Assembly (NCBI GenBank): GCA_001768565.1
Contig: MEOE01000007.1
Coordinates: 62,001-126,000, forward strand
Source of the DNA: Bacteroidetes bacterium GWF2_33_16
GTDB taxonomy: Bacteria > Bacteroidota > Bacteroidia > Bacteroidales > UBA12077
Direction: 5' to 3'
DNA: 64,000 nucleotides
The position numbers and the translations under genes are program-made. A model generated the notes under the pieces. It had not been told where the DNA came from, made no database searches, and saw nothing but the letters and a program-made list of their open reading frames with translations. Below, piece by piece: positions 42,703 to 61,005 of this stretch. Position 1 is the first letter of the stretch; the number at the start of each line of letters is the position of its first letter.

Positions 42703-44199
42703 ATGGAAACTAAGCAGAAAAGAATTGGCTATAGAAAATTGAGGTTATCTTTTTTCCTGATTTTTATTTTAATGTTTGGTTGTACTCAAGATTTTCTTGA
42801 TGTAAAACCACAAGGAAGTCTAACCGAAGTTCTTTTTTTAACCAATGCAGATGATGCACTAATGGCAACAAATGCAATTTACAGTTCGATGCGCGAATGG
42901 AATTTCTCTACAGGAGGATACCCCATATTAGATATCATGTCAGATGATGCTGTTAAGGGAAGTAATCCAGGAGATGGTGCAGGTTTAAATCTTTTCGATA
43001 ATTTTCAATTTACACCATCTGTAGGTGATATCGATCGATGGTATTCTGCTCTTTACAAGTCGATTCGAAGAACAAATATAGTTATTGAAAAAGTACCCGG
43101 CATAAGTATGGACGATATTTTAAAAAGCAGGTATATTGCCGAAGCCAGATTCTTCAGAGCCCTATATTATTTCCAATTGGTAAAAGCATTTGGGGATGTT
43201 ATTAAAGTAACTTCATTGAATCCTCCAAGTGACTTAAAAAGAACCAGTAAAGATGAAATTTATGAAGATTTAATTATTCCAGATTTACTATATGCAATTG
43301 AAAACTTGCCAGAGAAGGATGCTTACGCTTCGAAAGATGTGGGCCGGGCAACAAAGGGAGCTGCCTATACAGTGCTGGCTGATGTTTATCTTTTTAATAA
43401 TGATTTTATCAATGCAGAATTATATGCTTTAGAAGTAATTCAATCACTAAAATATGATCTTGAAACAGACTTTTCAACTGTTTTTTCTCTAGAGGGAGAA
43501 CATGGAATAGAATCAGTATTGGAAATTGGTGCATTACCCGAGGAAAATCCAACATTGGGAGGCAATCAGTTTGCAAATACTCAGGGAGTTAGAGGTGTTC
43601 CTAACCGTGGATGGGGGTTTAACAGGCCTTCTATTGATCTAATAAATTCTTTTGAAACCAATGATTCTAGAAAAGATGCAACAATCATTTTTTTAGGAGA
43701 AGTGCTGGATGGTATTACCATTCTTGGAGATGTATCTACACCAGATACAACATTTACAGATGCATCCAATACTGTGGTTAAAGAAATTGAAACCTACAAC
43801 CAAAAAGTTTGGGTCCCCGGATCAACAACTGTTGAAGAGTGGGGCTATAATTTACGAGTATATCGTTATGCAGAAGTTTTACTTATTGCCGCAGAAGCAT
43901 TAAACGAAAATGGAAAAACAGCCCCAGCTTTAACATATTTGAATTTAGTCAGAGATAGAGCTGGTTTAGAAGACTTTGAAAACACTGATAAAAATTTAAT
44001 TAGGGAACAAATCTGGAAGGATCGCCGATCCGAGCTAGCCATGGAAAGCAAGCGATTCTTTGATCTGGTTCGACAAGAACGTGCAAGCGAAGTATTGGGT
44101 GATTTGGGCTTTATAGCCAATAAGCACAACCTTCTGCCAATACCTCAAAACGAAATCGATCTTTCAAAAGGCTTATTAAGTCAAAATCCAAATTGGTAA
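42703..44199 (+). CDS. SusD/RagB-family surface glycan-binding lipoprotein
   Basis: A 498-residue lipoprotein. The lipobox ends in FGC (Cys 27) and is followed by TQDFLDVKPQGSLTE, the classic start of SusD proteins. The tetratricopeptide-like helical scaffold is recognisable in RYIAEARFFRALYYFQLVKAFGDV, GAAYTVLADVYLF and the C-terminal IWKDRRSELAMESKRFFDLVRQ. It forms the lid of the SusC channel and binds the incoming glycan. It is translated from the same transcript as SusC. Confidence 0.95.
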   Translation: METKQKRIGYRKLRLSFFLIFILMFGCTQDFLDVKPQGSLTEVLFLTNADDALMATNAIYSSMREWNFSTGGYPILDIMSDDAVKGSNPGDGAGLNLFDNFQFTPSVGDIDRWYSALYKSIRRTNIVIEKVPGISMDDILKSRYIAEARFFRALYYFQLVKAFGDVIKVTSLNPPSDLKRTSKDEIYEDLIIPDLLYAIENLPEKDAYASKDVGRATKGAAYTVLADVYLFNNDFINAELYALEVIQSLKYDLETDFSTVFSLEGEHGIESVLEIGALPEENPTLGGNQFANTQGVRGVPNRGWGFNRPSIDLINSFETNDSRKDATIIFLGEVLDGITILGDVSTPDTTFTDASNTVVKEIETYNQKVWVPGSTTVEEWGYNLRVYRYAEVLLIAAEALNENGKTAPALTYLNLVRDRAGLEDFENTDKNLIREQIWKDRRSELAMESKRFFDLVRQERASEVLGDLGFIANKHNLLPIPQNEIDLSKGLLSQNPNW

Positions 44200-44251: not shown

Positions 44252-45496
44252 ATGAAAAAAATTAGTCGTATTATTTTTATGTTATTAATCATTTTCGTAC
44301 CATTTACGGGATGTGATGATGATGAAGAGGATATTAAGGATTTGACTCTTGTGTCTCTAACATGTGGGAATGTGGACCTTTATGGTGCAACATCAGCCAC
44401 AGATGTTCCTGTTGATCAAACCATTGTAGCAGTATTTTCAACAAATATTGATGAAGCAACAGTTGCAACTGCAGTTAGTATTTTGAAAGGAGAAACTGAT
44501 GTGCCTTTTACAACCGTTGTTGATGGTAAAACATTAACAATTACAGTAACGGGTGGTTTAATTACTGGTACTCGTTATACAGTTAATATAAGTGCTGGGT
44601 TGGAATCTACTCAGGGAGCTGTTTTAGGAGCAATTTCTGCTTCCTTTACTACAATTGGTATTGGAATCGATACACCTCCAAAAGCAAGTAATCAGGTGCT
44701 TTATTTGCAATTTAACAATAGTATTGTTGATGTTATTGGTAGTCACACGAATCCTTTTACACAAGTTGCTTATACAACCGATCGTTTTGGAACAGCAAAT
44801 GGTGCTGCCAATTTCAGAGGTGCAACTGCCGCAGGAAATGGTGATTTAGTAGAAATTGCTGGTAGTAATCTTATAAATCCAAGTATGACTTTTAGCGTTT
44901 GGTTTAAAGTTAATTCTGCTGATTATGCCAATGGAGGTCACCCAATGTTTGGTCTTGCTACCGAAAGAGGATACTTTATGGAACTTGGCGGAACCTTAGC
45001 ATGGTGTAAATTTGCAACATCTCATAAAATTGATCCCGATCCAAATAGCCATTACTTCGGAACTGCATGGACAGATCCTAACGGTGATGGAAATGTTGGA
45101 GGTCAAACATTGTATGATTATGCTGGAAGTCTTGCAACAATTATGGGAGATAAATGGACATTATTAACAATGACATTCGATGCTGCTACTTCAATTAAAA
45201 CAATCTATTTTGATGGAGTAAAAATTATGCAGGTTGATCTTGATCTTGATGCAACTGAATGGTATCTGGCAGATATGGAAATAGCTGATCAAGCTGATGG
45301 AACAGGTGCTGCAATAACCGGTATTGAGGAAGTATTAGCATTGGGATATATGTGTAGCAGAGGCAATACTGCAACAGGTTGGAGTATTTATTCGACTGCA
45401 GATAATACATTTAAAGGTGCACTCGATGATCTTCGAATATTTAATGTAGCTCTTACTGAGAGTGAAGTGTTAGCTTTATATAACTCAGAAAATTAA
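44252..45496 (+). CDS. Surface glycan-binding lipoprotein (Ig-like and LamG/concanavalin domains)
   Basis: A 414-residue lipoprotein. Cys 21 is followed by DDDEED, a strong acidic export signal to the cell surface. An Ig-like (Big_5) domain spans about 30-130, and a LamG/concanavalin-like beta-sandwich about 147-410 (LYLQFNNSIVDVIG, FRGATAAGNGD, MTFSVWFKV, GALDDLRIFNVALTESEVLALY). No catalytic residues are evident. Its place right after SusD and before the enzymes fits a surface glycan-binding protein. The Ig-like domain resembles that of the following GH144 protein (both begin L-LVSL--G), so the two may share a spacer module. Confidence 0.83.
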   Translation: MKKISRIIFMLLIIFVPFTGCDDDEEDIKDLTLVSLTCGNVDLYGATSATDVPVDQTIVAVFSTNIDEATVATAVSILKGETDVPFTTVVDGKTLTITVTGGLITGTRYTVNISAGLESTQGAVLGAISASFTTIGIGIDTPPKASNQVLYLQFNNSIVDVIGSHTNPFTQVAYTTDRFGTANGAANFRGATAAGNGDLVEIAGSNLINPSMTFSVWFKVNSADYANGGHPMFGLATERGYFMELGGTLAWCKFATSHKIDPDPNSHYFGTAWTDPNGDGNVGGQTLYDYAGSLATIMGDKWTLLTMTFDAATSIKTIYFDGVKIMQVDLDLDATEWYLADMEIADQADGTGAAITGIEEVLALGYMCSRGNTATGWSIYSTADNTFKGALDDLRIFNVALTESEVLALYNSEN

Positions 45497-45679: not shown

Positions 45680-47659
45680 ATGAAATTATTAATTAAACAG
45701 TTCATTTATGTTTTTGCAAGTCTACTATTTATTTTAAGTTGTAGTGAGGACGATGAAATTCCACCTGAACTAAAATTAGTTTCTCTAATGTCAGGCGAAA
45801 CAATAATCTATACAAACGCTACCAATATAAACATTCCTATTAATGGGAAATTTACCGCTGAATTTAATTTAGCGCTGGACACCATCGGATTAAAACAGTT
45901 TTTTTTTTTAACAGATGAAAATGATGATACATTGTTCTTCACTATTTCCTGTTCATCTGATCGAAAAACTGTTTCATTATCTACCACCGATTCATTAGCT
46001 CCCAATTCAAATTACAAGTTCATATTTTTAGATGAAATTCAAGCTTTGTCCGGAGATAACCTTGACAAGCTAAGTATTCTATTCACAACTAAAAACGCCT
46101 CATTCTCGATAACCAATGGCCTTGTTGGAGATATTAGTCTGTTAAATAATAGCATACTTAAAAACATACCTTTATCACCTGTTTTTCAAATTGATTTCAG
46201 CCGACCTCTAAATACTGAGTCGGTAACATCCAATAATATTCGGTTGTTTAGCACAGAAGGAAGTGCCAGTATTGGTTTTACTTTTCAAAATGAAAATAAA
46301 ACACTTATAATCAATGCAAACGAAAACTTATCCCATCTTTCAAAATATACATTGTCTCTCAGTACCGACATATTTGGTGTGAATGGAGAACAATTCACGG
46401 GGTTTTCTAAGAGTTTTTATACCCAATTGGATTCTACATATAAATTCCCCACTTTAACTGATGATGAATTATTGACATTAATTCAGCGTCAAACCTTCAA
46501 ATATTTTTGGGATTTTGGGCATCCTGTAAGTGGTATGACAAGAGAAAGAAATACTTCTGGTGATGTTGTTGCGACTGGTGGCTCAGGATTTGGAATTATG
46601 GCAATAATCGTTGGAGTTGAAAGAGGATTTATTTCCAGAGCAGAAGGACTGGAAAGATTAGAAACCATTATTACTTTTCTGAGCAATGCGGATCGATTTC
46701 ATGGTGCATGGCCACATTGGTTAAATGGATCGACAGGGAATGTAATTCCATTTAGTTCCAGTGATAATGGTGGGGATCTCGTAGAAACATCCTATATGGC
46801 GCAAGGATTAATATCTGTTCGACAGTATCTGAATGCTGCAGATGGCTATGAAAATGCACTTATTAACAACATAAATTCACTTCTCAACACGATTGAATGG
46901 AGCTGGTATACAAAAGGAGACGAAGATGTGCTTTATTGGCATTGGTCACCCACTGTGGACTGGAGTTTAAACATGCAAATTAAAGGTTATAATGAAGCAC
47001 TGATAACCTATTTTATGGCGGCAACATCTTCTGCATATCCTGTTGATTCATCGGTTTATCATAACGGATGGGCTGGCTCAAGCTATTTTATTAACGGGAG
47101 GTCCTTTTTTGGAATAACTCTTCCTCTCGGTTATGATTATGGAGGACCATTATTCTTTGCACATTATTCATTCGTAGGATTAGATCCAAGAAATCTAAAT
47201 GATATGTATGCAAATTATTGGCAACAAAATACAAATCACACGCTTATAAACAGGGCATATTGTCAGGCAAATCCAAAAAACTATATTGCATATGGAGGAG
47301 GTTGTTGGGGATTAACAGCAAGTGATAATCAATCTGGCTACAATGCCCATTCTCCAACAAATGACTTGGGTGTTATAACACCAACAGCAGCAATTTCATC
47401 AATCCCTTATACTCCAACAGAATCTATGGAGGCTATTCATTATTTTTATTATTTGGTTGGAGATCGGCTCTGGGGCGAATATGGCTTCTACGATGCTTTT
47501 AATGTTAATGAAAGCTGGTGGGCCAGCTCTTATCTGGCTATTGATCAGGGCCCGATTATTTTGATGATAGAGAATTACAGAACCGGATTGTTATGGGATT
47601 TATTTATGTCGGCTCCGGAGGTGCAGCAAGCAATGGATAAACTTAGTTTTATAAATTAA
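45680..47659 (+). CDS. GH144-like (glycoamylase-domain) surface lipoprotein, putative endo-beta-1,2-glucanase
   Basis: A 659-residue lipoprotein. The lipobox ends in LSC, followed by SEDDE, an acidic surface-export signal. Two Ig-like domains (about 30-135 and 140-255) precede a glycoamylase-like (PF10091 type) six-hairpin catalytic domain (about 263-655) starting LTLIQRQTFKYFWDFGHP. Candidate catalytic acids are Asp 366 and Glu 369 in GGDLVET and Glu 439 in KGYNEAL; from memory this D-x-x-E plus distal Glu pattern matches characterised GH144 endo-beta-1,2-glucanases. It is expected to cut polymer at the cell surface for the SusCD pair. The activity is inferred; other glycoamylase-domain proteins are uncharacterised. 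Confidence 0.82.
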   Translation: MKLLIKQFIYVFASLLFILSCSEDDEIPPELKLVSLMSGETIIYTNATNINIPINGKFTAEFNLALDTIGLKQFFFLTDENDDTLFFTISCSSDRKTVSLSTTDSLAPNSNYKFIFLDEIQALSGDNLDKLSILFTTKNASFSITNGLVGDISLLNNSILKNIPLSPVFQIDFSRPLNTESVTSNNIRLFSTEGSASIGFTFQNENKTLIINANENLSHLSKYTLSLSTDIFGVNGEQFTGFSKSFYTQLDSTYKFPTLTDDELLTLIQRQTFKYFWDFGHPVSGMTRERNTSGDVVATGGSGFGIMAIIVGVERGFISRAEGLERLETIITFLSNADRFHGAWPHWLNGSTGNVIPFSSSDNGGDLVETSYMAQGLISVRQYLNAADGYENALINNINSLLNTIEWSWYTKGDEDVLYWHWSPTVDWSLNMQIKGYNEALITYFMAATSSAYPVDSSVYHNGWAGSSYFINGRSFFGITLPLGYDYGGPLFFAHYSFVGLDPRNLNDMYANYWQQNTNHTLINRAYCQANPKNYIAYGGGCWGLTASDNQSGYNAHSPTNDLGVITPTAAISSIPYTPTESMEAIHYFYYLVGDRLWGEYGFYDAFNVNESWWASSYLAIDQGPIILMIENYRTGLLWDLFMSAPEVQQAMDKLSFIN

Positions 47660-47785: not shown

Positions 47786-49168
47786 ATGAAAAAAGGCAGC
47801 GTTTTATTTATATTAATTTTGATTTTTTATTCATGTAACCAGCCACAACAGATTGAATTTAAATCGCATGGAAAGGTTGATTATTCGATTACAAGGGATG
47901 ATGAGGTTTTACTTGATTCAATTCAGCGTAAAACATTTCTTTATTTTTTAAACGAACATCACCCTGAATGGGGCATTGTAAAAGACCGTGCTTCTCTGTG
48001 GGCTCCTTCAAGCAGTGCATCAACCGGTTTTGGAATTCCTTCCTTTGCAATTGGAGTCGAAAGAAATTGGATTACCAGAGAACAGGCAGCGCAGATCACT
48101 CTTAATATGCTTAATTTTTACTTGAATTCTGTTCAAAGTACTGATACAAATGCAACCGGTTATAAGGGATTTTATTATCACTTTGTTAGAATGAGTTCCG
48201 GTACACGTGAATGGGATTGCGAACTTTCTTCTATCGATTCAGGAATACTGATGATGGGAATTATCTTTGCCCGTAACTATTACAATTTGCAAAATGAAGT
48301 GGAAAAGCAAATCCGGTCTGTATCGGAAATACTACTTGGAAGAATTGACTGGAGCTTTATGAAAATGGGACCATCAGGCAAATTTGGCAACTCGCTGTCT
48401 ATGGGATGGTATCCCGAAAAAGGTCTTCACGATATGGGCTGGATAGGTTACAATGAAGCACTGTTTTTGTATATTCTGGCTGCCGGTCTGGATATGAAAG
48501 ATGTTGAAGAAAGTTACGATGCATGGCTAAAAACCTATTTGTGGGAAAGTACATACGAGGAATTTTCGCATGTTGCATTTCCTCCTTTATTTGGTCATCA
48601 GTTTTCGCATGCATTTATTGACTTTAGGGGATTGGCAGATTCCTATATGAAGAAAAAAGGAATTGATTATTTCGAAAATTCTCGTCGGGCAACATATGTT
48701 CAGCGTCAATATGCAATAGACAATCCACATGCATGGGTTGGATATGATTCGCTCTGTTGGGGAATTACTGCAAGCGATGGCCCAACAACAAAATACAATT
48801 TCGACGACAAAGAGTTTAGAGGCTATGCGGGAAGAGGAGCCAGTGGACCTCATTATAATTATTTCGATGATGGAACAATAGCTCCCTATGCTTCGCTTTC
48901 ATCATTGCCATTTGCTCCTGAAATAGTTTTGCCTACTATTAAATCAATATTAGAGAAACAAGGAGGAAAAGTTTGGGGCAAATATGGATTTTATGATGCA
49001 TTCAATCCTACAGCAAATTGGGTTAATGATGATTTTATCGGTATTGCTCAAGGTCCCATGCTGATTATGATTGAAAACTTCAGAACAGGACTTGTATGGA
49101 ATTACGTGATGAAAGATCCTATTATTCAGAAAGGACTTAACAGACTAGAGTTTAGTTACATTAAATAA
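47786..49168 (+). CDS. GH144-like lipoprotein, probably periplasmic, putative exo-acting
   Basis: A 460-residue lipoprotein: lipobox FYSC followed by NQPQQ, without acids, so probably kept in the periplasm. It is a single glycoamylase-like domain with no Ig-like modules (RKTFLYFLNEHHPEWGI; IAQGPMLIMIENFRTGLVW at the end). Compared with the previous protein, the D-x-x-E of GGDLVET is replaced by SSID (Ser 148, Asp 151), while Glu 224 in IGYNEAL is kept. An additional DCE (144-146) lies just before. This suggests a different mode, perhaps release of disaccharide from oligosaccharides, as described for an exo-acting GH144 enzyme of Parabacteroides. It follows its paralogue by 127 bases. Confidence 0.78.
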   Translation: MKKGSVLFILILIFYSCNQPQQIEFKSHGKVDYSITRDDEVLLDSIQRKTFLYFLNEHHPEWGIVKDRASLWAPSSSASTGFGIPSFAIGVERNWITREQAAQITLNMLNFYLNSVQSTDTNATGYKGFYYHFVRMSSGTREWDCELSSIDSGILMMGIIFARNYYNLQNEVEKQIRSVSEILLGRIDWSFMKMGPSGKFGNSLSMGWYPEKGLHDMGWIGYNEALFLYILAAGLDMKDVEESYDAWLKTYLWESTYEEFSHVAFPPLFGHQFSHAFIDFRGLADSYMKKKGIDYFENSRRATYVQRQYAIDNPHAWVGYDSLCWGITASDGPTTKYNFDDKEFRGYAGRGASGPHYNYFDDGTIAPYASLSSLPFAPEIVLPTIKSILEKQGGKVWGKYGFYDAFNPTANWVNDDFIGIAQGPMLIMIENFRTGLVWNYVMKDPIIQKGLNRLEFSYIK

Positions 49169-49219: not shown

Positions 49220-52200
49220 ATGAATCGTCTTTTTTTAAAGATAATTTTACTATTTACCTTTTTGTTTCATATTAATGTAGTTGCTTTTGCACAGGCTATA
49301 TTACTTGATGATTTTGAAAACAAAGAGGGCTGGGATTTTATTAAGTCTGATGGTGTTAATCTTAAATTATCGAACGAAAAAGGATTAACAGGAAATGCCA
49401 TTCGTTTTGACTATGATTTTACTAAAGGTACTGGTTATGGAGGATTTCAGAAACTTTTTCCAATAGATCTTCCAGACAATTATGAGTTCACCTTTTTTAT
49501 TAAGGCAGAATCTCCTGCCAATAACTTTGAGATAAAATTTATTGATAGTACAGGAAACAATGTATGGTGGGTGAATAATCGCAACTTTGACTTTCCCGGA
49601 GAATGGAAAAAAATCCGAATCAAAAAAAGGCATATCAATTTTGCTTGGGGCCCAACGAATAACCAAAAACTTAACAGAATTGACAGGATAGAATTTACAA
49701 TTGCATCCTTTGTTGGCGGAAACGGTACCGTTTGGATTGATGATCTTCGGTTTGAACCACTTCTACCCGAAGCACAAACCTATCCCAAACCAACCGCAGA
49801 AGCCTCCTCTTCTGTTAAAAATCATTTAGAAACCACTATTACCGATGATTTATTAGAAACATACTGGCAATCCGGTAAAACAAAGAATCAACATATTGTT
49901 ATTGATTTTAACATCCGCAGAGAGTTTGGTGGGTTGCAAATAAACTGGCAGAAAGATTTTTATGCCACAAAATTCGATATTCTACTATCGAATGATAAAA
50001 AGAATTGGGAAAAAGTTTACTCTGTTCAGTCTAATCAGAGTAATGTTAGTTTTATACAATTACCGGAAGCAGAAGCAAAGTACATTAAAATAAACCTGCA
50101 TGAGGCTAAATCTTTAAAAGGATTCGGAATTTGTGAAATACAGATTCTGGATATAAAAAATTCATTAACACCGAATGATTTTCTTATTTATGCAGCTAAA
50201 AATTCGCCTCAAGGTGATTATCCAAGATATTTTTTAGAACAGGCATCTTATTGGACTATTGCGGGTGTTAATAATGATGTAAAAGAGGCCATGATAAGCG
50301 AAGACGGTATAGTTGAGGTCGATAAAGCGCTTTTTTCTATTGAGCCTCTTATAAAAATAGAAGATTCAATTTTCAATTGGAGCAATGTAAAATCATATCA
50401 GTCCTTGGGTAATTCAGAAGATAAAAATGAGTTTAATTTTATACCGAATGTTAGCTGGAAGATGAGAGATTTATTACTTGTAACGGAAGTTACGGCTTAC
50501 GGAGAGGCAAATAAGAATTCGAAATTAAATATCAGTTACTCATTTGAGAATATCTCTGACGAAGCCAAAGATTTTGAGTTCTATCTTTTAATCAGACCAT
50601 TTCAGGTAAATCCATATTATCAATTTCTGAATTTATCGGGTGGCGTGGGGAAAATAAAATCAATAAAAGAGGAGGAAGGTGGATTTTTATCTGTCGATGA
50701 TAAAGTAATACTGCCTCAAAAAAAATACGATTTTTTTGGTGCAAGCGCGTTTGATGAGGGAAATAGTGTTGATCTGATTCGAAAAGGGAAAATGCCTCTT
50801 AATAAATCAGCTACAGATCAAAATGGTTTGGCAAATGGAGTTATAAAATACGCACTCCACCTGAATCCGGGCGAAAGAACCAAACTGTACATGGTTGTAC
50901 CATTTTATAACAGTAATTCAAATTTTGATAGTATAGGTGCTCAGGATATTGAAGATGAGTTAACTAAATCAGCAGATTTCTGGAGATCAAAAGTGAATCA
51001 TATTAAATTCAATTTACCCGAATCTGCAGACAGGATTGTAAATACCTATAAATCAAACCTTGTATATATATTAATTAACAGGGATAAAGCAGGGATTCAA
51101 CCCGGTTCACGATCATACGAAAGAAGCTGGATACGCGATGGCGCCTTAACCTCATCAGCTCTTTTAAAATCAGGTATTGTAAGCGAAGTAAAGGATTTTA
51201 TTGATTGGTACTCTTCATATCAGTATGAAAATGGAAAGGTTCCATGCGTTGTTGATTCAAGGGGTACTGATCCGGTTCCTGAAAACGATAGTCACGGGCA
51301 GCTAATTTACTTGATCCGCGAATATTTCAACTTTACTCACGATACCACATTTCTAAAATCAAAAAACAGTTCTGTTTTAAAGGCAGTTGAATATATTGAA
51401 TCACTTATTGCGCAGCGATCAACAGACTATTACAGAAATGGGAATGATAGTCTGCGTTCATTCTTTGGTCTTGTACCAGAATCAATAAGCCACGAGGGAT
51501 ATTCGGCCAAGCCAATGCACTCGTATTGGGATGATTTTTTTACTTTAAAAGGATTGAAAGATGCAGCAGAGATTCAAAAAATACTGGGCGAAACAGCAAA
51601 TTATGGGAGAATAAGGAGTATTAGCGATACTTTCAGAGTGAATCTGTATCGTTCTTTGCAGCTTACAATGAAAAACAAAAATATCGATTACATCCCCGGT
51701 TGTGCAGAACTTGGTGATTTTGACCCAACATCTACCACCATTGCTTTAACTCCTTGTAACGAATTGAATAACATACCCAAACCTCAGGTTTATAATACAT
51801 TCGATTTGTATTATGAGTTCTTCAAAAACAGAAGAGACGGTAAAAACGAATGGATAAATTACACTCCATATGAAAACCGATTAATTGGTTCGTTTATTAT
51901 GTTGGATCAGCCTGAAAGAGCCCATGAATTGATTGATTTTTTCCTTAATGATCAGCGGCCTAAAGGTTGGAATCACTGGGCTGAAGTGGTATGGAATGGA
52001 TATCGTACACCTGGTTATATTGGTGATATGCCTCATACCTGGGTTGGTAGCGATTTTATAAATGCCATTCGTTCAATGTTTGTTTACGAAAACGAGTTTG
52101 ATCAATCACTTGTTTTGGGTTCTGCGCTTTATCAGGACTGGATAGATTCGCCTGGTGGAATTTCTGTTGAAAATCTACCTACATACTATGGAGAGATTTC

Positions 52201-52405
52201 ATACACTGTAAATAAGGATAACAATAAGTATACATTGTCAATATCAGGAGATGTAACCTTGCCTTCGAACGGAATCAAAGTGAAAAATTTCAATGGATCA
52301 AAACTCCCTGTAAGAGTTATGGTAAATGGTATCGAAACCAATGATTTTAGTGAAAAGGAAATATCTGTAAAAGCATTTCCCGCTGAAGTAATTATATCTT
52401 ACTAA
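49220..52405 (+). CDS. Periplasmic discoidin/six-hairpin glycosidase-like protein, family uncertain
   Basis: A 1061-residue exported protein. Its signal peptide (VVAFAQ) has no lipobox, so it is probably soluble in the periplasm. Residues about 25-180 are a carbohydrate-binding-like beta-sandwich (LLDDFENKEGWDF), about 190-312 an F5/8 type C (discoidin) domain, about 320-600 a beta-sandwich linker, and about 610-1000 an (alpha/alpha)6 barrel with ERSWIRDGAL (634-643), SYWDDFF and HTWVGSDF. ERSWIRDG resembles the glucoamylase/glycogen-debranching superfamily, but I cannot place it in a named GH family. In context it should trim or debranch imported oligosaccharides. The symporter gene starts 14 bases after it. 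Confidence 0.7.
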   Translation: MNRLFLKIILLFTFLFHINVVAFAQAILLDDFENKEGWDFIKSDGVNLKLSNEKGLTGNAIRFDYDFTKGTGYGGFQKLFPIDLPDNYEFTFFIKAESPANNFEIKFIDSTGNNVWWVNNRNFDFPGEWKKIRIKKRHINFAWGPTNNQKLNRIDRIEFTIASFVGGNGTVWIDDLRFEPLLPEAQTYPKPTAEASSSVKNHLETTITDDLLETYWQSGKTKNQHIVIDFNIRREFGGLQINWQKDFYATKFDILLSNDKKNWEKVYSVQSNQSNVSFIQLPEAEAKYIKINLHEAKSLKGFGICEIQILDIKNSLTPNDFLIYAAKNSPQGDYPRYFLEQASYWTIAGVNNDVKEAMISEDGIVEVDKALFSIEPLIKIEDSIFNWSNVKSYQSLGNSEDKNEFNFIPNVSWKMRDLLLVTEVTAYGEANKNSKLNISYSFENISDEAKDFEFYLLIRPFQVNPYYQFLNLSGGVGKIKSIKEEEGGFLSVDDKVILPQKKYDFFGASAFDEGNSVDLIRKGKMPLNKSATDQNGLANGVIKYALHLNPGERTKLYMVVPFYNSNSNFDSIGAQDIEDELTKSADFWRSKVNHIKFNLPESADRIVNTYKSNLVYILINRDKAGIQPGSRSYERSWIRDGALTSSALLKSGIVSEVKDFIDWYSSYQYENGKVPCVVDSRGTDPVPENDSHGQLIYLIREYFNFTHDTTFLKSKNSSVLKAVEYIESLIAQRSTDYYRNGNDSLRSFFGLVPESISHEGYSAKPMHSYWDDFFTLKGLKDAAEIQKILGETANYGRIRSISDTFRVNLYRSLQLTMKNKNIDYIPGCAELGDFDPTSTTIALTPCNELNNIPKPQVYNTFDLYYEFFKNRRDGKNEWINYTPYENRLIGSFIMLDQPERAHELIDFFLNDQRPKGWNHWAEVVWNGYRTPGYIGDMPHTWVGSDFINAIRSMFVYENEFDQSLVLGSALYQDWIDSPGGISVENLPTYYGEISYTVNKDNNKYTLSISGDVTLPSNGIKVKNFNGSKLPVRVMVNGIETNDFSEKEISVKAFPAEVIISY

Positions 52406-52418
52406 TTCAAAAAAAGAG

Positions 52419-54518
52419 ATGGATAATAGCACAAACAATTCCACAAAAACAGAAGATCGTATTTCCTTTACCCAATTGGCAGCATATGGGACAGGTGGTA
52501 TTATTCCTATCGCCCTGTTCAATGTTGCAGGAATTCTGGTTGGCTTAATGGGAAATATTAGTTTGGGACTTAGTGCATTTTGGCTCGGCGTAATTCTTAT
52601 TATTCCTCGGTTGTGGGATGCTATATCTGATCCTATCATTGGCCATTTATCTGATAATACCCGAACTCGCTGGGGGCGAAGAAGACCGTACCTTTTGGTG
52701 GGTGGCATTTTGGTTGCTATTACTTTTGTAATAATGTGGTGGATACCTAAAGGAGAAATGGTACAAACATGGTTTCCAACAGAATCAAGCTATCATGCAT
52801 TTCAGCTTGGCTATATTCTTATTACACTTCTGTTGTTTTTTACTGCTGTAAATATTTTCGAGATTCCTCATGGTGCGCTTGGTATGGAAATGACTACCGA
52901 TTCGCATACTCGTACTCGATTGTTCAGCGCTAAAAGCTTTGTCGGCAATTTATTTGCAATGAGCACACCTTGGCTTTTTGCTATCGCTACAATGGAAATA
53001 TTTAAAGGCCCCGGAGGTAATGAAGCCGACGGTATGCGCTATGTCTCAATAATGATTGCAGCTATTCTTATTCCGCTTTCTTTCTGGTGGTTTTTCAAGC
53101 TGCGCGAGCCGGGCTTCCAAAAAGCTGCAAAGCAGGAGAAAACAGATTTCTGGAAAGATATGGGGCTGGTGATCTCAAATAAAAACTTTGTTATGTTAAC
53201 GCTAACGGTTTTTACCTTAGCTATGGGTTTTAATTTTGTGCAACTTCTCGGTTCTTATATTCCAATTTTTTATGTTTATGGCGGAGATAAAGTTGCAGGT
53301 GCTACTTTACTCGGAATAAATGGAACAATTTGGGCCATCACTGGAGTATTAGCTGTTTTTCCTCTCAATTGGATTAGTCCTAAACTTGGAAAGCGCAATA
53401 CGCTTGTTATTGCAATGGTTCTTATGATTCTTGCCCAGCTCTCCAAGATTGTTTGTTATAATCCTAATCATCCATATTTAATTGTGATTCCCACTATTCT
53501 GCTATCGACCGGAATGTTGTTTTTCTTTACACTCGGTTCGTCAATGGTGGGTGATATTTGCGATGAAGACGAACTAAACACAGGAAAACGCTCCGAAGGA
53601 AGTTATTATGCAATTTTCTGGTGGTTTATAAAAATGGGAACTGCACTTGCCAGCTTTGTAGCAGGTGTGCTTATTGTATTTACTATGTTTGATGAAGCAC
53701 AAGTAACTAAAGTGGATAGTTTACAGGGTAATATAAGAGAGCTTCGAAGCAAGGTGCAACTATGGAAAGGGAGTGAGGGCTTTGAGGGTTCAAATGCTGT
53801 ATTACTTGAAAATACAAAAAAACAGTGTAAAGATGCTTTAGATGAATCGAAAACATATGTAAGCATTCTCGAAAAAGAATCAGTAAAACAGGAAAGTGAA
53901 GCAAATCAGAATGTCGCAGATTACCAAAGTGATAGGAAGATAAAACTTTTAAATGCCTTGGCAATTACAAAATCAACAGTTATCGAACTTGAAAATATTC
54001 AATCACGTCTGGAAAATTTAGGCTCTCACCCAGATGATTCAGTGATTATAAATATATCTAAAGAAGCTGTAGCACCCACATTGCAAACTAAACTGGAGAA
54101 AGCGAAGATGAACTCATTTGAGCTCATTTCGCATCTTGAATCCAAATCTTTAGTGCCCAAATCTATTAAAAAAGAAGAAACGGATGAGCATTATGCTATA
54201 ATCATGAAAGGGATCACAATTGTTAAAGATCGACTTATTAGCATTAAAACAACTTCTTCACTAGATTCACTAGATAAAAATCTTGGTGCTATTGAAACTG
54301 AAATTATGCCTCTTACAAAGCAAACGCCATATACTCTGTTAATGATGCGTGTGGTCGAAATTGGATTGCCATTTTTATTGAGTTTGCTTTCTATATTTTT
54401 TGTCTTACGTTATTCTCTAACAGAAAAACGATCCCATGAAATCAAATTGCTGCTTAAGCTAAGAAATCAAGATGGTTTAGACAAAGAGAATGGTACTAAA
54501 GAAACATCTAACGATTAA
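52419..54518 (+). CDS. GPH-family sugar:cation symporter with periplasmic coiled-coil insert
   Basis: A 699-residue inner-membrane protein. The 12-helix core matches the glycoside-pentoside-hexuronide:cation symporters (PRLWDAISDPIIGHLSDNTRT, RRRPYLLVGG, GDICDEDELNTGKRSEGSYYA). Unlike ordinary members (about 450-500 residues) it has about 210 extra residues (about 425-637) between helices 11 and 12, highly charged and coiled-coil-like (LRSKVQLWKG, LEKESVKQESEANQ). By the usual topology this loop is periplasmic. It probably moves oligosaccharides made by the periplasmic enzymes into the cytoplasm, where the next two gene products act. The genes are spaced by 14 and 17 bases. Confidence 0.87.
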   Translation: MDNSTNNSTKTEDRISFTQLAAYGTGGIIPIALFNVAGILVGLMGNISLGLSAFWLGVILIIPRLWDAISDPIIGHLSDNTRTRWGRRRPYLLVGGILVAITFVIMWWIPKGEMVQTWFPTESSYHAFQLGYILITLLLFFTAVNIFEIPHGALGMEMTTDSHTRTRLFSAKSFVGNLFAMSTPWLFAIATMEIFKGPGGNEADGMRYVSIMIAAILIPLSFWWFFKLREPGFQKAAKQEKTDFWKDMGLVISNKNFVMLTLTVFTLAMGFNFVQLLGSYIPIFYVYGGDKVAGATLLGINGTIWAITGVLAVFPLNWISPKLGKRNTLVIAMVLMILAQLSKIVCYNPNHPYLIVIPTILLSTGMLFFFTLGSSMVGDICDEDELNTGKRSEGSYYAIFWWFIKMGTALASFVAGVLIVFTMFDEAQVTKVDSLQGNIRELRSKVQLWKGSEGFEGSNAVLLENTKKQCKDALDESKTYVSILEKESVKQESEANQNVADYQSDRKIKLLNALAITKSTVIELENIQSRLENLGSHPDDSVIINISKEAVAPTLQTKLEKAKMNSFELISHLESKSLVPKSIKKEETDEHYAIIMKGITIVKDRLISIKTTSSLDSLDKNLGAIETEIMPLTKQTPYTLLMMRVVEIGLPFLLSLLSIFFVLRYSLTEKRSHEIKLLLKLRNQDGLDKENGTKETSND

Positions 54519-54535: not shown

Positions 54536-56971
54536 ATGATATTTAGTATAAAAGATGACAGTTTTTACCTCGACGACAGAAAAATATTTCTCAATTCTGG
54601 AGAGATTCATTATTTCAGAATTAAGCACGAGCTGTGGGATAAACATTTAGAAGAAGCCAAAGAGGCTGGCTTAACTACTGTTAGTACATATGTTCCATGG
54701 GCATGGCACGAATACAAAGAGAAAACATTTGATTTTGATGGTACATCATGTCCTGAACGAGATATAATAGGTTGGCTCCAGAAATGCAAATCTCATGGAT
54801 TAAATTGTATCGTAAAACCAGGTCCCTTTATTTTGGCAGAGTTTCGTGGTGCAGGATTGCCGGACTGGTTTATGGAGAAATATGGGATTGAGGTTAAAAT
54901 GAGAAACAGCAAAGGCTCAATATTTCCAAGCGATGGAGTTAGTCTTTTTAATAAGACCTATCTTGAAAAAGTTACTTTGTGGTATGACAAGATAATGCCT
55001 TTGATAAGCGACCATCAAATATCAGCAGGTGGACCAATCATTATGATGCAAGTATGTAATGAGATAGGCGTATTTTCCTGGTTGGCTCACCAGGGCGATT
55101 ATTGCGATGAGGTGAAAAAACGATTCATTGCTTACCTATCAAAAAAGTTTAAAAATATTGCTGATGTTAATAGTTTATGGGGAACAGATTATAAAGATTT
55201 TGCAAATGTAGAACTGCCTCCTGATGGTAAATTTCCTTATGCATCGAAAAGCGATCGTGGTCGTAATTACGAATGGCACTCTTTCTGGCGAACCTACTAT
55301 GGCGACTATCTAAAAATGTTAGCCCTAATGGCAAGAGACAGAGGCGTAAGTGTACCGTTTTATCACAATCTGCCAGGCTGGATATATGGAAATGGGTACG
55401 AATTTCCGGTTAATATTACTATGTACGAAGATTTATTTGGTGATAATAGCGAAATCATTTTTGGGGTAGATCATATCCCGGAGTTTCTTTCGTACCGAAA
55501 TATGCACGATGACCGCATTATAAATGATATAACCTATGCAATGCAAGGGCAAAAACCTCTTTTCGCAGCCGAGTTTCAGTGTGGTTCACGCGAGTACCAT
55601 GTTGTCACAAATCCCCGGGAAATGGAACTCTTCTATAAGGCAAGCATTGCAAATGGACTAACAGGCTGGAACTATTATATGTTTTCGCAGGGACGAAACC
55701 CCAGACATAAAGGCTATTCCGGAGAAACGTTTTACTGGTTCAATCCACTCACTCCTGAGGGTGAAAGAACAAGTGCTTTTCCTCTCGTAAAACGAATGAG
55801 TAAGGTTTTAAAAATTTCCGAAAATATAATCGTTAATGCAAAACGAAAAGCGGATGTGTGTGTGCTTTTCTATCCTCCTTATTATGCCACAGAGTTAGAA
55901 AGGCCAGTTGATGAAAGATGTGAACTCCAATTCAACGTTTCAGCAATACGTAGACCAGCTTATTTCGATGGATTGCTTAAAGTACTTCAAGTTCTCGATA
56001 TCGATTATGATATGGTGGATTTGAATAAAGCAACTGCTGATAAACTGGCTAAATACAAACAAGTTTGGGCCTTTTGCACCGATGAGATGAATGCGAGGGA
56101 ACAGCAAACAATTGTTGATTATTCAAGGGTTGGTGGGAATGTAGTTATTTTCCCTTATCTCCCGGATCGTGAGATGTCGCAGAAACCATGCACTATCATT
56201 CGCGATGCATTATCAATTATCCCATCAGGAATAGAAAACGTTGATTCCCCATTGATAGATATATATGATTTTAAAGATATCAAATGTGCTAATCCACAGG
56301 TAATCTATAACGAAGAATCACTTGCCGGAGCAGAGATTATCGCTAGAAACATTCATGGAAACATTTGCGGTTTTACAAAACCCTTAGGAAAAGGTACAAT
56401 TATTCATATAGGCACTTGGATTGGATTTGACACAGAGGGACAAAAACCCGTTTATGAAACAATTTTAGGAAAATCTGGCGCAAAACTCAGACAGGCAACT
56501 TCTAACAATTATCATATAAATGTCAGGGAGCGATTCACAAATAACCATTCTGCTATTTTATTTATTGGAAATTATTACAATGAGGAACAGGTGGGTAGCG
56601 TAACTTACACTCATCCTAGAAGTGCTGAATCTATTGAAATTCCTTACACTCAAAAAGAAATGCTATGGCCTCCATTATATGCAGCTTTAGTTCCTGTTGG
56701 CTTAAAAATTTCTGAGGATTTAAGTGTACTGCATTGTACCTCAGACATTCTTAATGTTGAGGTTAACGACAAACAAATCCTAATTACACTTTATGGAGAT
56801 AGAGATTTGTATGGTGAGTTGGTTTTGGAAGGTGCGGGAATCAAGAATATCAGTCAGGCTGAAATGAATGGGGATACTCTTGATTTAGTTCCTGAGAATA
56901 AACGCTTAGCAATTATTTATAGTCATAAGCATAAGGAAGAAATGGTTCTTAACATCACAATAAATAAATGA
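54536..56971 (+). CDS. GH35-family glycosidase or beta-1,2-glucosyltransferase, cytoplasmic
   Basis: An 811-residue protein with no signal peptide. The N-terminal barrel is GH35-like: SGEIHYFRIKHELWDKHL, STYVPWAWHE, VKPGPFILAEFRGAGLPDW. The acid/base is Glu 176 in MQVCNEIG (most relatives read ENE; here Cys 174 replaces the first Glu) and the nucleophile is probably Glu 346 in FAAEFQCGS. A Rossmann-like middle domain (about 435-600) and beta domains follow. GH35 is best known for beta-galactosidases, but a GH35 enzyme of Ignavibacterium album is a glucosyltransferase on beta-1,2-glucosides. With GH144 and GH94 neighbours, that role fits better. Its stop overlaps the GH94 start (ATGA). Confidence 0.82.
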   Translation: MIFSIKDDSFYLDDRKIFLNSGEIHYFRIKHELWDKHLEEAKEAGLTTVSTYVPWAWHEYKEKTFDFDGTSCPERDIIGWLQKCKSHGLNCIVKPGPFILAEFRGAGLPDWFMEKYGIEVKMRNSKGSIFPSDGVSLFNKTYLEKVTLWYDKIMPLISDHQISAGGPIIMMQVCNEIGVFSWLAHQGDYCDEVKKRFIAYLSKKFKNIADVNSLWGTDYKDFANVELPPDGKFPYASKSDRGRNYEWHSFWRTYYGDYLKMLALMARDRGVSVPFYHNLPGWIYGNGYEFPVNITMYEDLFGDNSEIIFGVDHIPEFLSYRNMHDDRIINDITYAMQGQKPLFAAEFQCGSREYHVVTNPREMELFYKASIANGLTGWNYYMFSQGRNPRHKGYSGETFYWFNPLTPEGERTSAFPLVKRMSKVLKISENIIVNAKRKADVCVLFYPPYYATELERPVDERCELQFNVSAIRRPAYFDGLLKVLQVLDIDYDMVDLNKATADKLAKYKQVWAFCTDEMNAREQQTIVDYSRVGGNVVIFPYLPDREMSQKPCTIIRDALSIIPSGIENVDSPLIDIYDFKDIKCANPQVIYNEESLAGAEIIARNIHGNICGFTKPLGKGTIIHIGTWIGFDTEGQKPVYETILGKSGAKLRQATSNNYHINVRERFTNNHSAILFIGNYYNEEQVGSVTYTHPRSAESIEIPYTQKEMLWPPLYAALVPVGLKISEDLSVLHCTSDILNVEVNDKQILITLYGDRDLYGELVLEGAGIKNISQAEMNGDTLDLVPENKRLAIIYSHKHKEEMVLNITINK

Positions 56972-59900
56972 AGATCAACAGCCCAACAGGACTTTCTATT
57001 AGTCTGCTAAACAATGGTTCAATAAAATCAATTGAGGTCGATCCAATCAGAATTAGCCTCCAGGCAGCAACTCCGTATTCAAAGTTGGGTGCAAATATTT
57101 ACGTAAGGAAAAGAACAAATCCTCCTGAATTTAAAGCATTGGTTGGTCCTGAAAGTAACAGCCAATTTGAGATTTGTGGAGACACCATTATTGCGAAAGG
57201 GAGTTGGAACGGACTAAGCTACAAATGTACTTTGCAACTTTCAAACACAAGTTTGAGCTGGCAATGGCAGATTGATATTAAAAATGTAACCGATTCAGAC
57301 CTCGGGTTAGATCTAATTTATTTACAGGATATCGGTTTAAAGCCAGCTGTTGAGAATTCAATCAATGAGTATTACGTTGCCCAATATATAGAGCGATTAA
57401 TTCTTGAGGATGAGAAGTATGGTTCGGTTATTTGTTGTCGCCAGAATATGAAAGGACCAACGGGAAACCCTTGGGTGATGTTAGCTTGCAAAAACGCTGC
57501 ATCTTCTGCTAGTACAGACGGAATGCAGTTCTATGGAAAATCATATAAAGTAGCAGGAGTTCCGGAAGGTTTGGTTGGCGATTTGCTTGGTGGTGAATAT
57601 GCCGGAGAGTCTCCAATAGTTGCATTGCAGGAAAAACCCTTTGCGCTTGCTCCAAATGGTAATCATTCATCAACCTTTGTTGGATGTTATCTTCCGGATC
57701 ATCCTGAAGCAACTTCAGATAAAGATCTAAGCAAACTATCTAAACTATTTATTGAATTTGATGGAAGCAAAACATTTCAATCAAAAGGTAAAACATTTAT
57801 CCCTCAAAAAAATATCTTTAACACATCTCCCTTATTGCCCGTTGAGGATTTGAGCATAAAGGAATTGAAACAATTCTTTGGAGAGAATTGGCGACATCAG
57901 GAGGAAGATAATGGAAAACTTATTTCATTCTTTTACAACCAAAACAGCCATGTTGTTTTACGATCAAAAGTTAAACTGGTCGATCGTCCTCATGGTCATA
58001 TCATGCAAGCAAAAGCAGGTTATATTCCAGATGAAAATATTGTTTCAACTACTTCCTATGCCTATGGCGTTTTTAACTCACATTTAACTCAGGGAAATAC
58101 CAATTTTAATATTTTTCTTTCAGTATCGTCTAGCCAGTTTAATCTTAGTACAGAAACGGGTCAACGAATATTTGTTGAAATTGATGGACAAAAATACCTT
58201 CTGGGAGTTCCATCTGCCTTTGAAATGGGATTAAACTATTGCCGTTGGATTTATAAGCAGGGTGATTTTTGTTTGCAGGTTCGCACATGGACATCAAAAA
58301 CTGCCCCACAAGTAAATTTAGATATTAAATTAATTAGTGGTTCCAACGTTAAACTGCTCATCACACATCATTTTGACGAGAATAATGGATGGACACTCAG
58401 TCAGGGCAATTCCCCAAAGGAATTTATAGCCAAACCTAAATCTGAGAGTTTAATTACAAGCAAATTCCCCAATGCACAATTTAAGATTTTGGTTCAAGAG
58501 TCTGATTCAGATTTTACTGTGTATAATGATGACTCAAATAACAACAGATTATTCATCATTGATGTTCAGGAAACATCTTATTTCTGTATGAGTTTTCTGG
58601 GTGAAGTTTGCAATACTACTCAAGCGGTTTCAATTGTAAATTCAGATATTCAGTGGCAATCAGATTGTAGGGATGCACAATCTGTTTGGCAGGATTTAAG
58701 TTTAAACTTATCCATAAAAGGAGATCAGAAAGATTTAGCTGCAATTCGGGAAATATTACCATGGTTTGGCATGAATGCACTTACTCATTATTTAACTCCT
58801 TACGGATTAGAGCAATTCAGCGGAGCAGCATGGGGTACACGCGATGTTTCTCAAGGTCCTATCGACTTACTTTTAAATTTAAATAAGTACGATGAAGCTA
58901 GAAAAGTGCTACTCATTATTTTCTCTAATCAGAATCCCGATGGTGGATGGCCTCAATGGTGGATGTTCGATAGTTACGCAAATATCAGGGCACACGAAGC
59001 ACATGGCGATATCTTTTACTGGTGTATTATTGCTCTTAGCAACTATATCAAAGTTACCGACGACCTGAAAATTCTTGACGAGGTTCTTCCTTACTATTCA
59101 GAAGATGGTAAAAACAGGATTGAAAAAACAACACTTAGTGAACATGTTGATCGGTTAATCAACATGATAATTGATTCATTTATTAAAGGTACTTCTCTCG
59201 TTCCTTTTGGTGGTGGAGACTGGAATGATTCCTTACAACCAGTAAGTAGTGAGCTGGCACAACAAATGATCTCCAGTTGGACAGTTGAAATGAATTACCA
59301 GGCTTTTTCACAATATCAGGCAGTTTATGAGATGCTTGGAAAGACGGGGCAGGCAGAGAAATTAAAAAATAGTTGTGAGAGAATTAGAAATGACTTTAAT
59401 AAATTCCTGGTGAAGGATGGAATTGTTGCCGGATATGGTTTAGTTGAAAAAGATGGCAGTATGAGCGTATTGCTCCATCCAACGGATAAATTAACTGGAA
59501 TTCATTATAGCATTTTGCCAATGAACCGAGGCATTATTAGTGGGATTTTCACAAAGGAACAAGCACAGTACCATCAACTTTTAATTGAGCAACATCTTAA
59601 AGGTCCCGATGGTGCAAGATTAATGGATCGTCCGCTAAAATACAAAGGAGGAATTCAAACAATATTTCAGAGAGCGGAAAGCAGTACCTTCTTTGGTCGC
59701 GAGATTGGTTTAATGTATGTGCATGAGCATATTCGTTATGCCGAATCACTTGCCATTATGGGGAAAGCGGAGGCTTTCGTAAAAGCTCTTCGACAGGCAA
59801 TTCCGGTAGGCTACAGAGATATTGTACCAAGTGGATATATTCGCCAATCAAATTGTTACTATAGCAGTTCCGATGTTGCATTTAAAAGTCGATACGATGC

Positions 59901-60291
59901 AGATGAACGCTATGATGAAATTAATTCAGGAAAAATAACTCTTAGAGGTGGTTGGCGAGTTTATTCAAGTGGCCCTGGTATTTATATTGGGCTGATAATT
60001 TCCAGAATGCTCGGCCTGCGAATTGAATTTGGGAAAGTTATTATTGATCCAGTAATGCCCCTTTCGTTTGATGATATGTCGGTAAATATAGATTTTATGG
60101 GTTATCCTGTTAATCTAACCTATAAAGTAAAAGAAAACGGATTTAGCCCTAAATCGATAGTAATTAACGGGAAAAAGATTTCATTTGATTACGAAGATAA
60201 TGTTTATCGTAAAGGCGGAGCAGTTATTCTAAAAGAACAATTTTTAGCCATGATGAATAAAAAAGAAAATAGGGTAGAGATTCAATTATAG
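56968..60291 (+). CDS. GH94 phosphorylase, putative 1,2-beta-oligoglucan phosphorylase
   Basis: A 1107-residue cytoplasmic enzyme (no signal peptide). An N-terminal super-beta-sandwich region to about 570 leads to the (alpha/alpha)6 barrel with GAAWGTRDVSQGP, NPDGGWPQWWM, the catalytic-acid motif GGGDWNDSL (Asp 751, Asn 753, Asp 754), and SSSDVAFKSRYDA near the end. GH94 enzymes cleave beta-glucosides with inorganic phosphate. Cellobiose phosphorylases are about 800 residues; the length near 1100 fits 1,2-beta-oligoglucan phosphorylases. Products would be glucose 1-phosphate and a shortened glucan, which saves ATP. It is the last gene of the locus. Confidence 0.87.
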   Translation: MKINSPTGLSISLLNNGSIKSIEVDPIRISLQAATPYSKLGANIYVRKRTNPPEFKALVGPESNSQFEICGDTIIAKGSWNGLSYKCTLQLSNTSLSWQWQIDIKNVTDSDLGLDLIYLQDIGLKPAVENSINEYYVAQYIERLILEDEKYGSVICCRQNMKGPTGNPWVMLACKNAASSASTDGMQFYGKSYKVAGVPEGLVGDLLGGEYAGESPIVALQEKPFALAPNGNHSSTFVGCYLPDHPEATSDKDLSKLSKLFIEFDGSKTFQSKGKTFIPQKNIFNTSPLLPVEDLSIKELKQFFGENWRHQEEDNGKLISFFYNQNSHVVLRSKVKLVDRPHGHIMQAKAGYIPDENIVSTTSYAYGVFNSHLTQGNTNFNIFLSVSSSQFNLSTETGQRIFVEIDGQKYLLGVPSAFEMGLNYCRWIYKQGDFCLQVRTWTSKTAPQVNLDIKLISGSNVKLLITHHFDENNGWTLSQGNSPKEFIAKPKSESLITSKFPNAQFKILVQESDSDFTVYNDDSNNNRLFIIDVQETSYFCMSFLGEVCNTTQAVSIVNSDIQWQSDCRDAQSVWQDLSLNLSIKGDQKDLAAIREILPWFGMNALTHYLTPYGLEQFSGAAWGTRDVSQGPIDLLLNLNKYDEARKVLLIIFSNQNPDGGWPQWWMFDSYANIRAHEAHGDIFYWCIIALSNYIKVTDDLKILDEVLPYYSEDGKNRIEKTTLSEHVDRLINMIIDSFIKGTSLVPFGGGDWNDSLQPVSSELAQQMISSWTVEMNYQAFSQYQAVYEMLGKTGQAEKLKNSCERIRNDFNKFLVKDGIVAGYGLVEKDGSMSVLLHPTDKLTGIHYSILPMNRGIISGIFTKEQAQYHQLLIEQHLKGPDGARLMDRPLKYKGGIQTIFQRAESSTFFGREIGLMYVHEHIRYAESLAIMGKAEAFVKALRQAIPVGYRDIVPSGYIRQSNCYYSSSDVAFKSRYDADERYDEINSGKITLRGGWRVYSSGPGIYIGLIISRMLGLRIEFGKVIIDPVMPLSFDDMSVNIDFMGYPVNLTYKVKENGFSPKSIVINGKKISFDYEDNVYRKGGAVILKEQFLAMMNKKENRVEIQL

Positions 60292-60588: not shown

Positions 60589-61005
60589 ACTTTTTTGGCT
60601 TGATCCAAAAAAGTAACAAAAAATCCCGATAGCTATCGGGACAAGACAAAACGATACTTCCACGCTCTCTGCGATAAGCAAACAATTCCTCCCAAAGTAA
60701 GCAAGCTCCTTTGTCGGAATCCTAATGCTTATCACATTCACCCTGCCCTATGGCTCGTCGTTTTGTCATGCCTGCGCTCAATAATCCGCATCTGATAAAT
60801 TTGTTTCAAAAATCAAGAAAAACATGTGCGGGATAGGTCAGGTAAGCAACACTCAGTCTCGACATACAATGATTAATTAGAATAATAAATTAACATCGAG
60901 ACGACTTGTGTTGCGCTGAATAACAGGTTTTTCTATGATTTTAACAAATCTGTCAGTGGCGGTGACTTTTTTTGGTTCTTTTTTGTGTGGCTGACAAAAA
61001 AGAAC
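60589..61005. repeat. Structured intergenic element with nested inverted repeats
   Basis: About 420 noncoding bases, richer in G+C than their flanks. A hairpin opens it (ACTTTTTTGG 60589-60598 with CCAAAAAAGT 60605-60614), and a perfect 18-base palindrome follows (60624-60641, TCCCGATAG core). A first nest pairs 60645-60654 with 60758-60767, 60673-60680 with 60726-60733, 60685-60689 with 60716-60720 and 60693-60697 with 60709-60713. A second nest pairs 60799-60805 with 60943-60949, 60809-60823 with 60927-60942, 60846-60852 with 60908-60914 and 60856-60862 with 60896-60902. A closing hairpin pairs 60975-60986 with 60994-61005. It could be a repeat family of Bacteroidota intergenic DNA, a MITE, or a structured RNA. 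Confidence 0.65.

Follow-up and report, generated by a model that had tools for sequence, protein, structure and literature searches.

The DGH gene and its operon

We analyzed a 64,000-nt stretch of contig MEOE01000007.1 from Bacteroidetes bacterium GWF2_33_16 (the window), focusing on a gene for a discoidin and GH15-like six-hairpin protein, for which we coined the label DGH. The gene lies in an operon of the order SusC/D-GH144-GH144-DGH-GPH-GH35-SOGP, with all members in the same direction and spacings of 51 bp upstream of DGH, 13 and then 17 bp downstream of it and, lastly, a 4-bp overlap (Table 1). PF10091, matched by both GH144 proteins, occurs only at these two sites in the 4.33-Mb genome, both just upstream of the single-copy DGH gene, which argues against a chance neighborhood. 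A preliminary description of the locus had proposed a tight operon of β-1,2-glucan genes. Its view is borne out by the short gaps and by neighbors homologous to proteins with solved structures, comprising GH144 (8xul, 5gzh), GH35 (7vkw) and SOGP (5h3z).

A four-member alignment, used to scan the GTDB species genomes, yielded at least 582 relatives. Locus statistics below refer to the best 80 of these (the 80 loci), and neighborhood statistics exclude both the window itself and plasmid records L004–L007, which were taken from their own annotation. Three alignments were built: A2 with the window protein and 58 homologs from the 80 loci, A3 with the window protein, 40 locus homologs and three plasmid homologs (44 rows), and A4, corresponding to A3 minus those three (41 rows).

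The length, reading frame and domain content given for DGH in the preliminary description all held up: the open reading frame encodes exactly 1061 residues and two binding-like domains precede an (α/α)6 barrel with the motif ERSWIRDG. The first of these domains, a β-sandwich, resembles the Endoglucanase H chain 1v0a only weakly (E = 0.015, phmmer against PDB sequences). The second, a discoidin domain, accounts for the sole Pfam match of DGH (PF00754, residues 193–303, E = 2.2e-14) and resembles the CBM32-like chains 2rva and 4zz5 in a PDB sequence search. In a full-length AlphaFold2 (AF2) model from 59 sequences (predicted local distance difference test (pLDDT) score 90.2, predicted template modeling (pTM) score 0.87), a super-β-sandwich, the barrel and a C-terminal β-sandwich follow. 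The barrel modeled alone reached a pLDDT of 89.3. ERSWIRDG, residues 634–641, sits in the loop leading into the second barrel helix, and structure searches likewise confirm the barrel.

Table 1 Features of the DGH locus (window positions; Glu residues and domains numbered on the DGH protein)
Feature	Position	Strand	Basis
Propeller-type regulator (Reg_prop, Y_Y_Y, weak LuxR helix-turn-helix)	36486..39335	+	Pfam
SusC homolog	39651..42650	+	TIGR04056
SusD homolog	42703..44199	+	Pfam
Probable surface glycan-binding lipoprotein (Big_5 + Laminin_G_3)	44252..45496	+	Pfam; N-terminus
GH144a, CpSGL-type β-1,2-glucanase with Big_5 domain	45680..47659	+	Pfam PF10091; nearest solved 4gl3, 5gzh
GH144b, XcSGL-type GH144 β-1,2-glucanase, probable lipoprotein	47786..49168	+	PF10091 E 9.5e-73; 8xul XCC2207 E 1.6e-104
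DGH (discoidin/GH15-like six-hairpin protein)	49220..52405	+	Single 1061-aa open reading frame, ATG start
DGH predicted signal peptide, residues 1–24, no lipobox	49220..49291	+	By eye; helix 2–23 in AF2 model
DGH N-terminal β-sandwich, residues 27–180	49298..49759	+	AF2 model; weak phmmer match to 1v0a
DGH discoidin/F5-8 type C domain, ~residues 190–312	49787..50155	+	PF00754; AF2 model
DGH super-β-sandwich, residues 318–595	50171..51004	+	AF2 model; structure alignments covering 335–1060
DGH (α/α)6 catalytic barrel, residues 596–962	51005..52105	+	AF2 model; barrel-only model and PDB comparison
W637-I-R639-D640, equivalent of GH15 W-x-R-D	51128..51139	+	44/44 members; precedes second barrel helix
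E759, candidate general acid, α5–α6 loop	51494..51496	+	Invariant 44/44; loop 733–768 in model; hhalign to GH15
E922, candidate general base, α11–α12 loop	51983..51985	+	Invariant 44/44; loop 911–939 in model; hhalign to GH15
GPH/MFS_2 inner-membrane sugar transporter	52419..54518	+	PF13347 E 7.6e-67
GH35, homolog of β-1,2-glucosyltransferase IaSGT, no signal peptide	54536..56971	+	7vkw E 1.4e-150
SOGP, GH94 1,2-β-oligoglucan phosphorylase homolog, no signal peptide	56968..60291	+	5h3z E 5.1e-181

An acidic run after the lipobox cysteine marks surface lipoproteins in Bacteroidota. Inspection by eye revealed SEDDE after the lipobox cysteine of GH144a, which is probably surface-exposed, and a lipobox without subsequent acidic residues in GH144b. 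DGH, with its plain signal peptide, is predicted to be periplasmic or secreted, and GH35 and SOGP lack export signals. On the basis of these N-termini, the likely order of events runs from GH144a at the surface to GH144b and DGH in the periplasm and the finishing enzymes GH35 and SOGP in the cytosol.

Fold and candidate catalytic residues of DGH

The preliminary description could name no glycoside hydrolase (GH) family for DGH, and sequence databases gave the same answer. The catalytic part had no Pfam or NCBIfam match above cut-off; PHROGs gave no match, a PDB sequence search with DGH returned binding-domain chains only, and one with the 44-member catalytic profile returned nothing at E values up to 1. 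The best subthreshold NCBIfam match was the GH15-type model TIGR01577 (E = 5e-8, residues 509–732), matched by 42 of the 44 members (best 2e-11). PF00723, the GH15 family, was not reached by DGH at E values up to 0.1 and was weakly matched in 8/44 members (best E = 0.0011). For GH78, PF17389 had no match in the window protein and weak ones in 16/44 members (best 1.5e-7), while the PF17167 and SOGP domains of GH94 were unmatched at E values up to 0.1 (DGH) or 0.01 (44 members). Profile comparison with hhalign gave 92.9% for a GH15 alignment, 66.9% for SOGP and 0.5% for GH144b.

Structural comparison pointed the same way. The full-length model scored alike against many six-hairpin families (Z 20–26, 9–15% identity) and thus reveals the superfamily only; GH78, GH95, GH65, GH116 and others share the fold at ~10% identity, with GH116, GH65 and GH95 likened to DGH by fold alone. 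The top Foldseek match of the full model was dextran dextrinase. This GH15 enzyme was also closest to the barrel (Z 33.5, 2.9 Å, 335/367 residues), followed by isomaltose glucohydrolase (30.1), GH116 (30.0) and glucodextranase and glucoamylase (29.8). Model and structure searches against six-hairpin families, suggested earlier as a check, gave no clear family match, with GH15 as the nearest.

In GH15, according to the available part of PMC12446779, an Arg-Asp pair binds O4 and O6 at subsite −1, the acid Glu lies in the α5–α6 loop and the base Glu in the α11–α12 loop. All three elements have counterparts in DGH. W-x-R-D was present in 12/12 GH15 proteins examined and W-I-R-D in 44/44 DGH members, E759 falls between model helices 716–732 and 769–789, and E922 falls between helices 898–910 and 940–954. 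Their invariance extends to the Methylocystis and Methylosinus homologs. The DGH fold is well supported, and computation shows that GH15-type catalytic positions are retained.

Two adjacent positions are as constant as the shared marks. Residue 758, before the candidate acid, is His in 44/44 members, while most GH15 proteins have Trp ([IL]WE in 10/12), and Val923 follows the candidate base in 44/44. By sequence, DGH is therefore GH15-like rather than GH15. Gln after the base is associated with inverting GH15 members; a pattern scan detected E-Q near the C-terminus for only some of the 12 GH15 proteins, and the retaining dextran dextrinase has Ser after the base (PMC12446779, part available). 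Like glucoamylase, glucodextranase, isomaltose glucohydrolase and dextran dextrinase, DGH has its barrel after a super-β-sandwich, but identity is ~10–15%, discoidin and β-sandwich domains are added and the operon is devoted to β-1,2-glucan instead of α-glucan. GH94 members (SOGP, cellobiose phosphorylase) share the domain order and fold and a weak profile similarity, whereas DGH has an invariant Glu at the GH15 base position. DGH is best read as belonging to a new glycoside hydrolase family that neighbors GH15. The earlier suggestion of a conserved-context orphan, possibly a new family, thus stands, the context being kept across phyla, with the correction that DGH is not without relatives, being close to GH15 with its catalytic residues retained.

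Pairing of DGH with XcSGL-type GH144

The best 80 relatives come from Bacteroidales, Chitinophagaceae, Ignavibacteria, Calditrichota, KSB1, Kryptoniota and Phycisphaerales. In the window's own class, sampled evenly, DGH occurred in 1/395 genomes, two further rows being discoidin-domain matches only. Plasmid records added homologs from Xanthomonas sacchari, Croceibacterium, Methylocystis and Methylosinus. An open-access literature search retrieved no paper describing this protein family. Ignavibacteria loci (for example, L036) carry DGH between GH144b and GH35; a paper on the Ignavibacterium album cluster (PMC8861115) describes the neighboring genes, with no mention of DGH in its accessible part.

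GH144 was present in 75/80 DGH loci. It lay immediately upstream on the same strand in 60 of the 71 loci whose upstream sequence reaches 600 b or more, a count that excludes the other nine, at a median gap of 44.5 b. Among 295 genomes of the order, DGH occurred in 15 and GH144 (E < 1e-40) in 67 that included all 15, that is, in 15/15 DGH-positive versus 52/280 DGH-negative genomes (Fisher 5.8e-11, a P value that is too small because related genomes are counted as independent). In each of the 15, a GH144 match directly precedes DGH, with contig and strand shared. Presence and absence also shift together within the window's own genus, in which three of three congeners (G489, G588 and G671) lack both GH144 and DGH; the locus therefore seems to be gained or lost there as a whole.

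The partner is a specific GH144 type. A tree of 151 GH144 proteins contained a clade of 65 (support 0.98) corresponding to the GH144b type, with 64 members from DGH-carrying loci. It comprises GH144b of the window and the proteins of X. sacchari and Croceibacterium, so that these Xanthomonas and Croceibacterium DGH loci hold the same GH144 type as the window. The X. sacchari member (bit score 1109 to 8xul) is the ortholog of XcSGL, described in the available part of PMC12102758 as a β-1,2-glucanase of X. campestris. In X. sacchari, genes for a TonB receptor, the XcSGL ortholog, an ABC importer and DGH are consecutive. Pairwise distances of DGH paralleled those of GH144b (r = 0.927, 61 loci) more closely than those of GH144a (0.67), GH35 (0.62), the GPH transporter (0.70) or SOGP (0.83). 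At L023:8615-13060, GH144b and DGH are fused in frame into a protein of 1481 aa. This is one case from a metagenome assembly, but the second signal peptide is gone, which makes a sequencing error a difficult explanation. Pairing of DGH with XcSGL-type GH144 (XCC2207, 8XUL) is thus well supported and looks obligate. The association with β-1,2-glucan genes stated in the preliminary description is conserved, although it narrows to this GH144 type and does not concern β-1,2-glucan genes in general.

The partners show no sequence kinship. DGH has no PF10091 match and reached only 0.3% in hhalign to GH144a, besides the value for GH144b given above, and GH144 belongs to a different (α/α)6 clan, GH-S (PMC12102758, part available). 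We rejected an origin of DGH as an ancient duplicate of the neighboring glucanase on the basis of this profile comparison.

We also inspected 19 DGH-negative GH144 loci (L155–L173). SusC/D was present in 15, GH3 in 12 and a GH144b-type protein in one; probe searches of these loci recovered no SOGP, GH35 or GPH transporter. Two kinds of β-1,2-glucan locus seem to exist in Bacteroidales, one with GH144a and often GH3, the other with GH144a, GH144b, DGH, GPH, GH35 and SOGP. Because a GH3 homolog also occurs in 20/80 DGH-positive loci, the two kinds seem to be distinguished by GH144b, DGH, SOGP, GH35 and GPH and not by GH3, and the same count led us to reject a replacement of GH3 by DGH. A requirement of DGH for all β-1,2-glucan use was likewise rejected, since 52/67 GH144 genomes of the order lack it; as the 19 loci do without DGH, the gene seems dispensable for GH144-based use of linear β-1,2-glucan.

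Three side observations concern the plasmid homologs. The X. sacchari R1 homolog (L004:11695-15147), located after the XcSGL ortholog and ABC importer genes, is split across reading frames and unannotated in its record. Methylosinus and Methylocystis homologs (L007:5972-12430, L006:9554-12427; 30% identity) have no signal peptide and begin with a discoidin domain. One Methylosinus homolog adjoins a SOGP-type phosphorylase, which ties it independently to β-1,2-glucan, and a GH15 protein is encoded close by.

Candidate activities of DGH

Work on β-1,2-glucan degradation has elucidated one enzyme after another, and DGH would be a widespread one still missing from the set, a companion of the characterized glucanase XcSGL. 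The available part of the XcSGL paper (PMC12102758) makes no mention of it.

Since its machinery is GH15-like, DGH is predicted to act on an α-glucosidic bond, and it is probably inverting and α-cleaving. The α-glucosidic bond described for β-1,2-glucans in the accessible part of PMC11842490 is the α-1,6 closure of rings with a degree of polymerization (DP) of 13, 16 and 18 in Ralstonia, Xanthomonas and Cereibacter. X. campestris, from which XcSGL comes, produces the DP16 ring through XccOpgD (PMC11228985, part available), and X. sacchari carries DGH beside the XcSGL ortholog. For these reasons we favor, tentatively and at somewhat under an even chance, a GH15-like, α-cleaving enzyme that opens the α-1,6 closure of cyclized β-1,2-glucans. 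Of the substrates put forward in the preliminary description, this reading keeps cyclic glucan and narrows it to the closing bond.

In such a pathway, SusC/D would import the α-1,6-cyclized ring, and in the periplasm the lipoprotein GH144b would cut β-1,2 bonds and DGH the α-1,6 bond, in either order. The discoidin and β-sandwich domains may hold the glucan while R639 and D640 would bind the subsite −1 glucose at O4 and O6. E759 would protonate the leaving oxygen and E922 would activate water, cleaving the α-D-glucosidic bond with inversion. Plain β-1,2-oligosaccharides could then pass the GPH transporter to cytosolic GH35 and SOGP, neither of which is, to our knowledge, known to handle an α-1,6 link.

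Several observations weigh against ring opening. By itself, the fold leaves the anomer undecided, since GH116 β-glucosidases (barrel Z 30.0) tie with isomaltose glucohydrolase (30.1) and β-acting GH94 shares the fold as well. GH15 active sites are pockets for a terminal glucose; a ring glucose at subsite −1 carries the chain on O2, and the O2 side of the pocket would have to be open. Next to the two candidate catalytic residues, the Trp of most GH15 proteins is replaced by the constant His758 and Val923 is equally constant, and inverting and retaining GH15 enzymes are not separable by sequence alone according to the available part of PMC12446779. As for gene context, the Methylocystis and Methylosinus branch has no GH144 near DGH, and L155, the only GH144b-clade member without DGH, has GH3 in its locus instead.

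The shared fold with GH94 and GH116 also suits a different activity, cleavage of β-1,2 bonds by an exo- or endo-acting trimmer of GH144b products that releases, for example, periplasmic glucose or sophorose. The very tight coupling with a plain β-1,2-glucanase would fit sequential action on one chain. Moreover, a GH3 probe found no homolog in the 64,000-nt window, so a periplasmic β-glucosidase could be wanted. Nevertheless, the profile similarity and catalytic layout of DGH are nearer to α-acting GH15 than to GH94, short oligosaccharides are already dealt with by SOGP and GH35 in the cytosol, and DGH is no simple stand-in for GH3, which occurs in 20/80 DGH-positive loci and in Croceibacterium as compared to 12/19 DGH-negative GH144 loci. 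We consider this trimming role unlikely, roughly a one-in-four prospect.

Less likely still is a role in clearing the way for GH144b on decorated periplasmic glucans by stripping off another α-linked sugar or substituent. The α-type machinery, the two carbohydrate-binding-like domains and the accessory distribution (15/67 GH144 genomes of the order) agree with it, but the substituents named in the accessible part of PMC11842490 are succinyl, acetyl, phosphoglycerol, phosphoethanolamine and β-1,6-glucose, with no α-linked side sugar. Most doubtful is a retaining transglucosylase that moves an α-linked unit instead of hydrolyzing it: dextran dextrinase tops both the Foldseek search and the barrel comparison and shares with DGH a residue other than Gln after the base, yet transfer would be of little use to a periplasmic enzyme in a catabolic operon.

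If DGH opens the α-1,6 bond, it may, as a slightly bolder and equally tentative proposal, be the founder of a new GH family, mirror the GH186 cyclase XccOpgD on the catabolic side and represent the first enzyme known to hydrolyze that bond, common to Bacteroidota, Ignavibacteria, Calditrichota and Proteobacteria including Xanthomonas. Such an activity would account for the consumption or recycling of osmoregulated periplasmic glucans by bacteria of soil and sediment and by Xanthomonas itself, and DGH would become a specific reagent for detecting α-1,6-closed rings, among them the plant-immunity-relevant ones of Xanthomonas and its like. The prediction is testable at once, as the ring can be made with XccOpgD.

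Promoter and terminator scans gave matches near chance level. Directly after SOGP, a GC-rich palindrome followed by a T run (60623-60642) perhaps marks the end of the operon.

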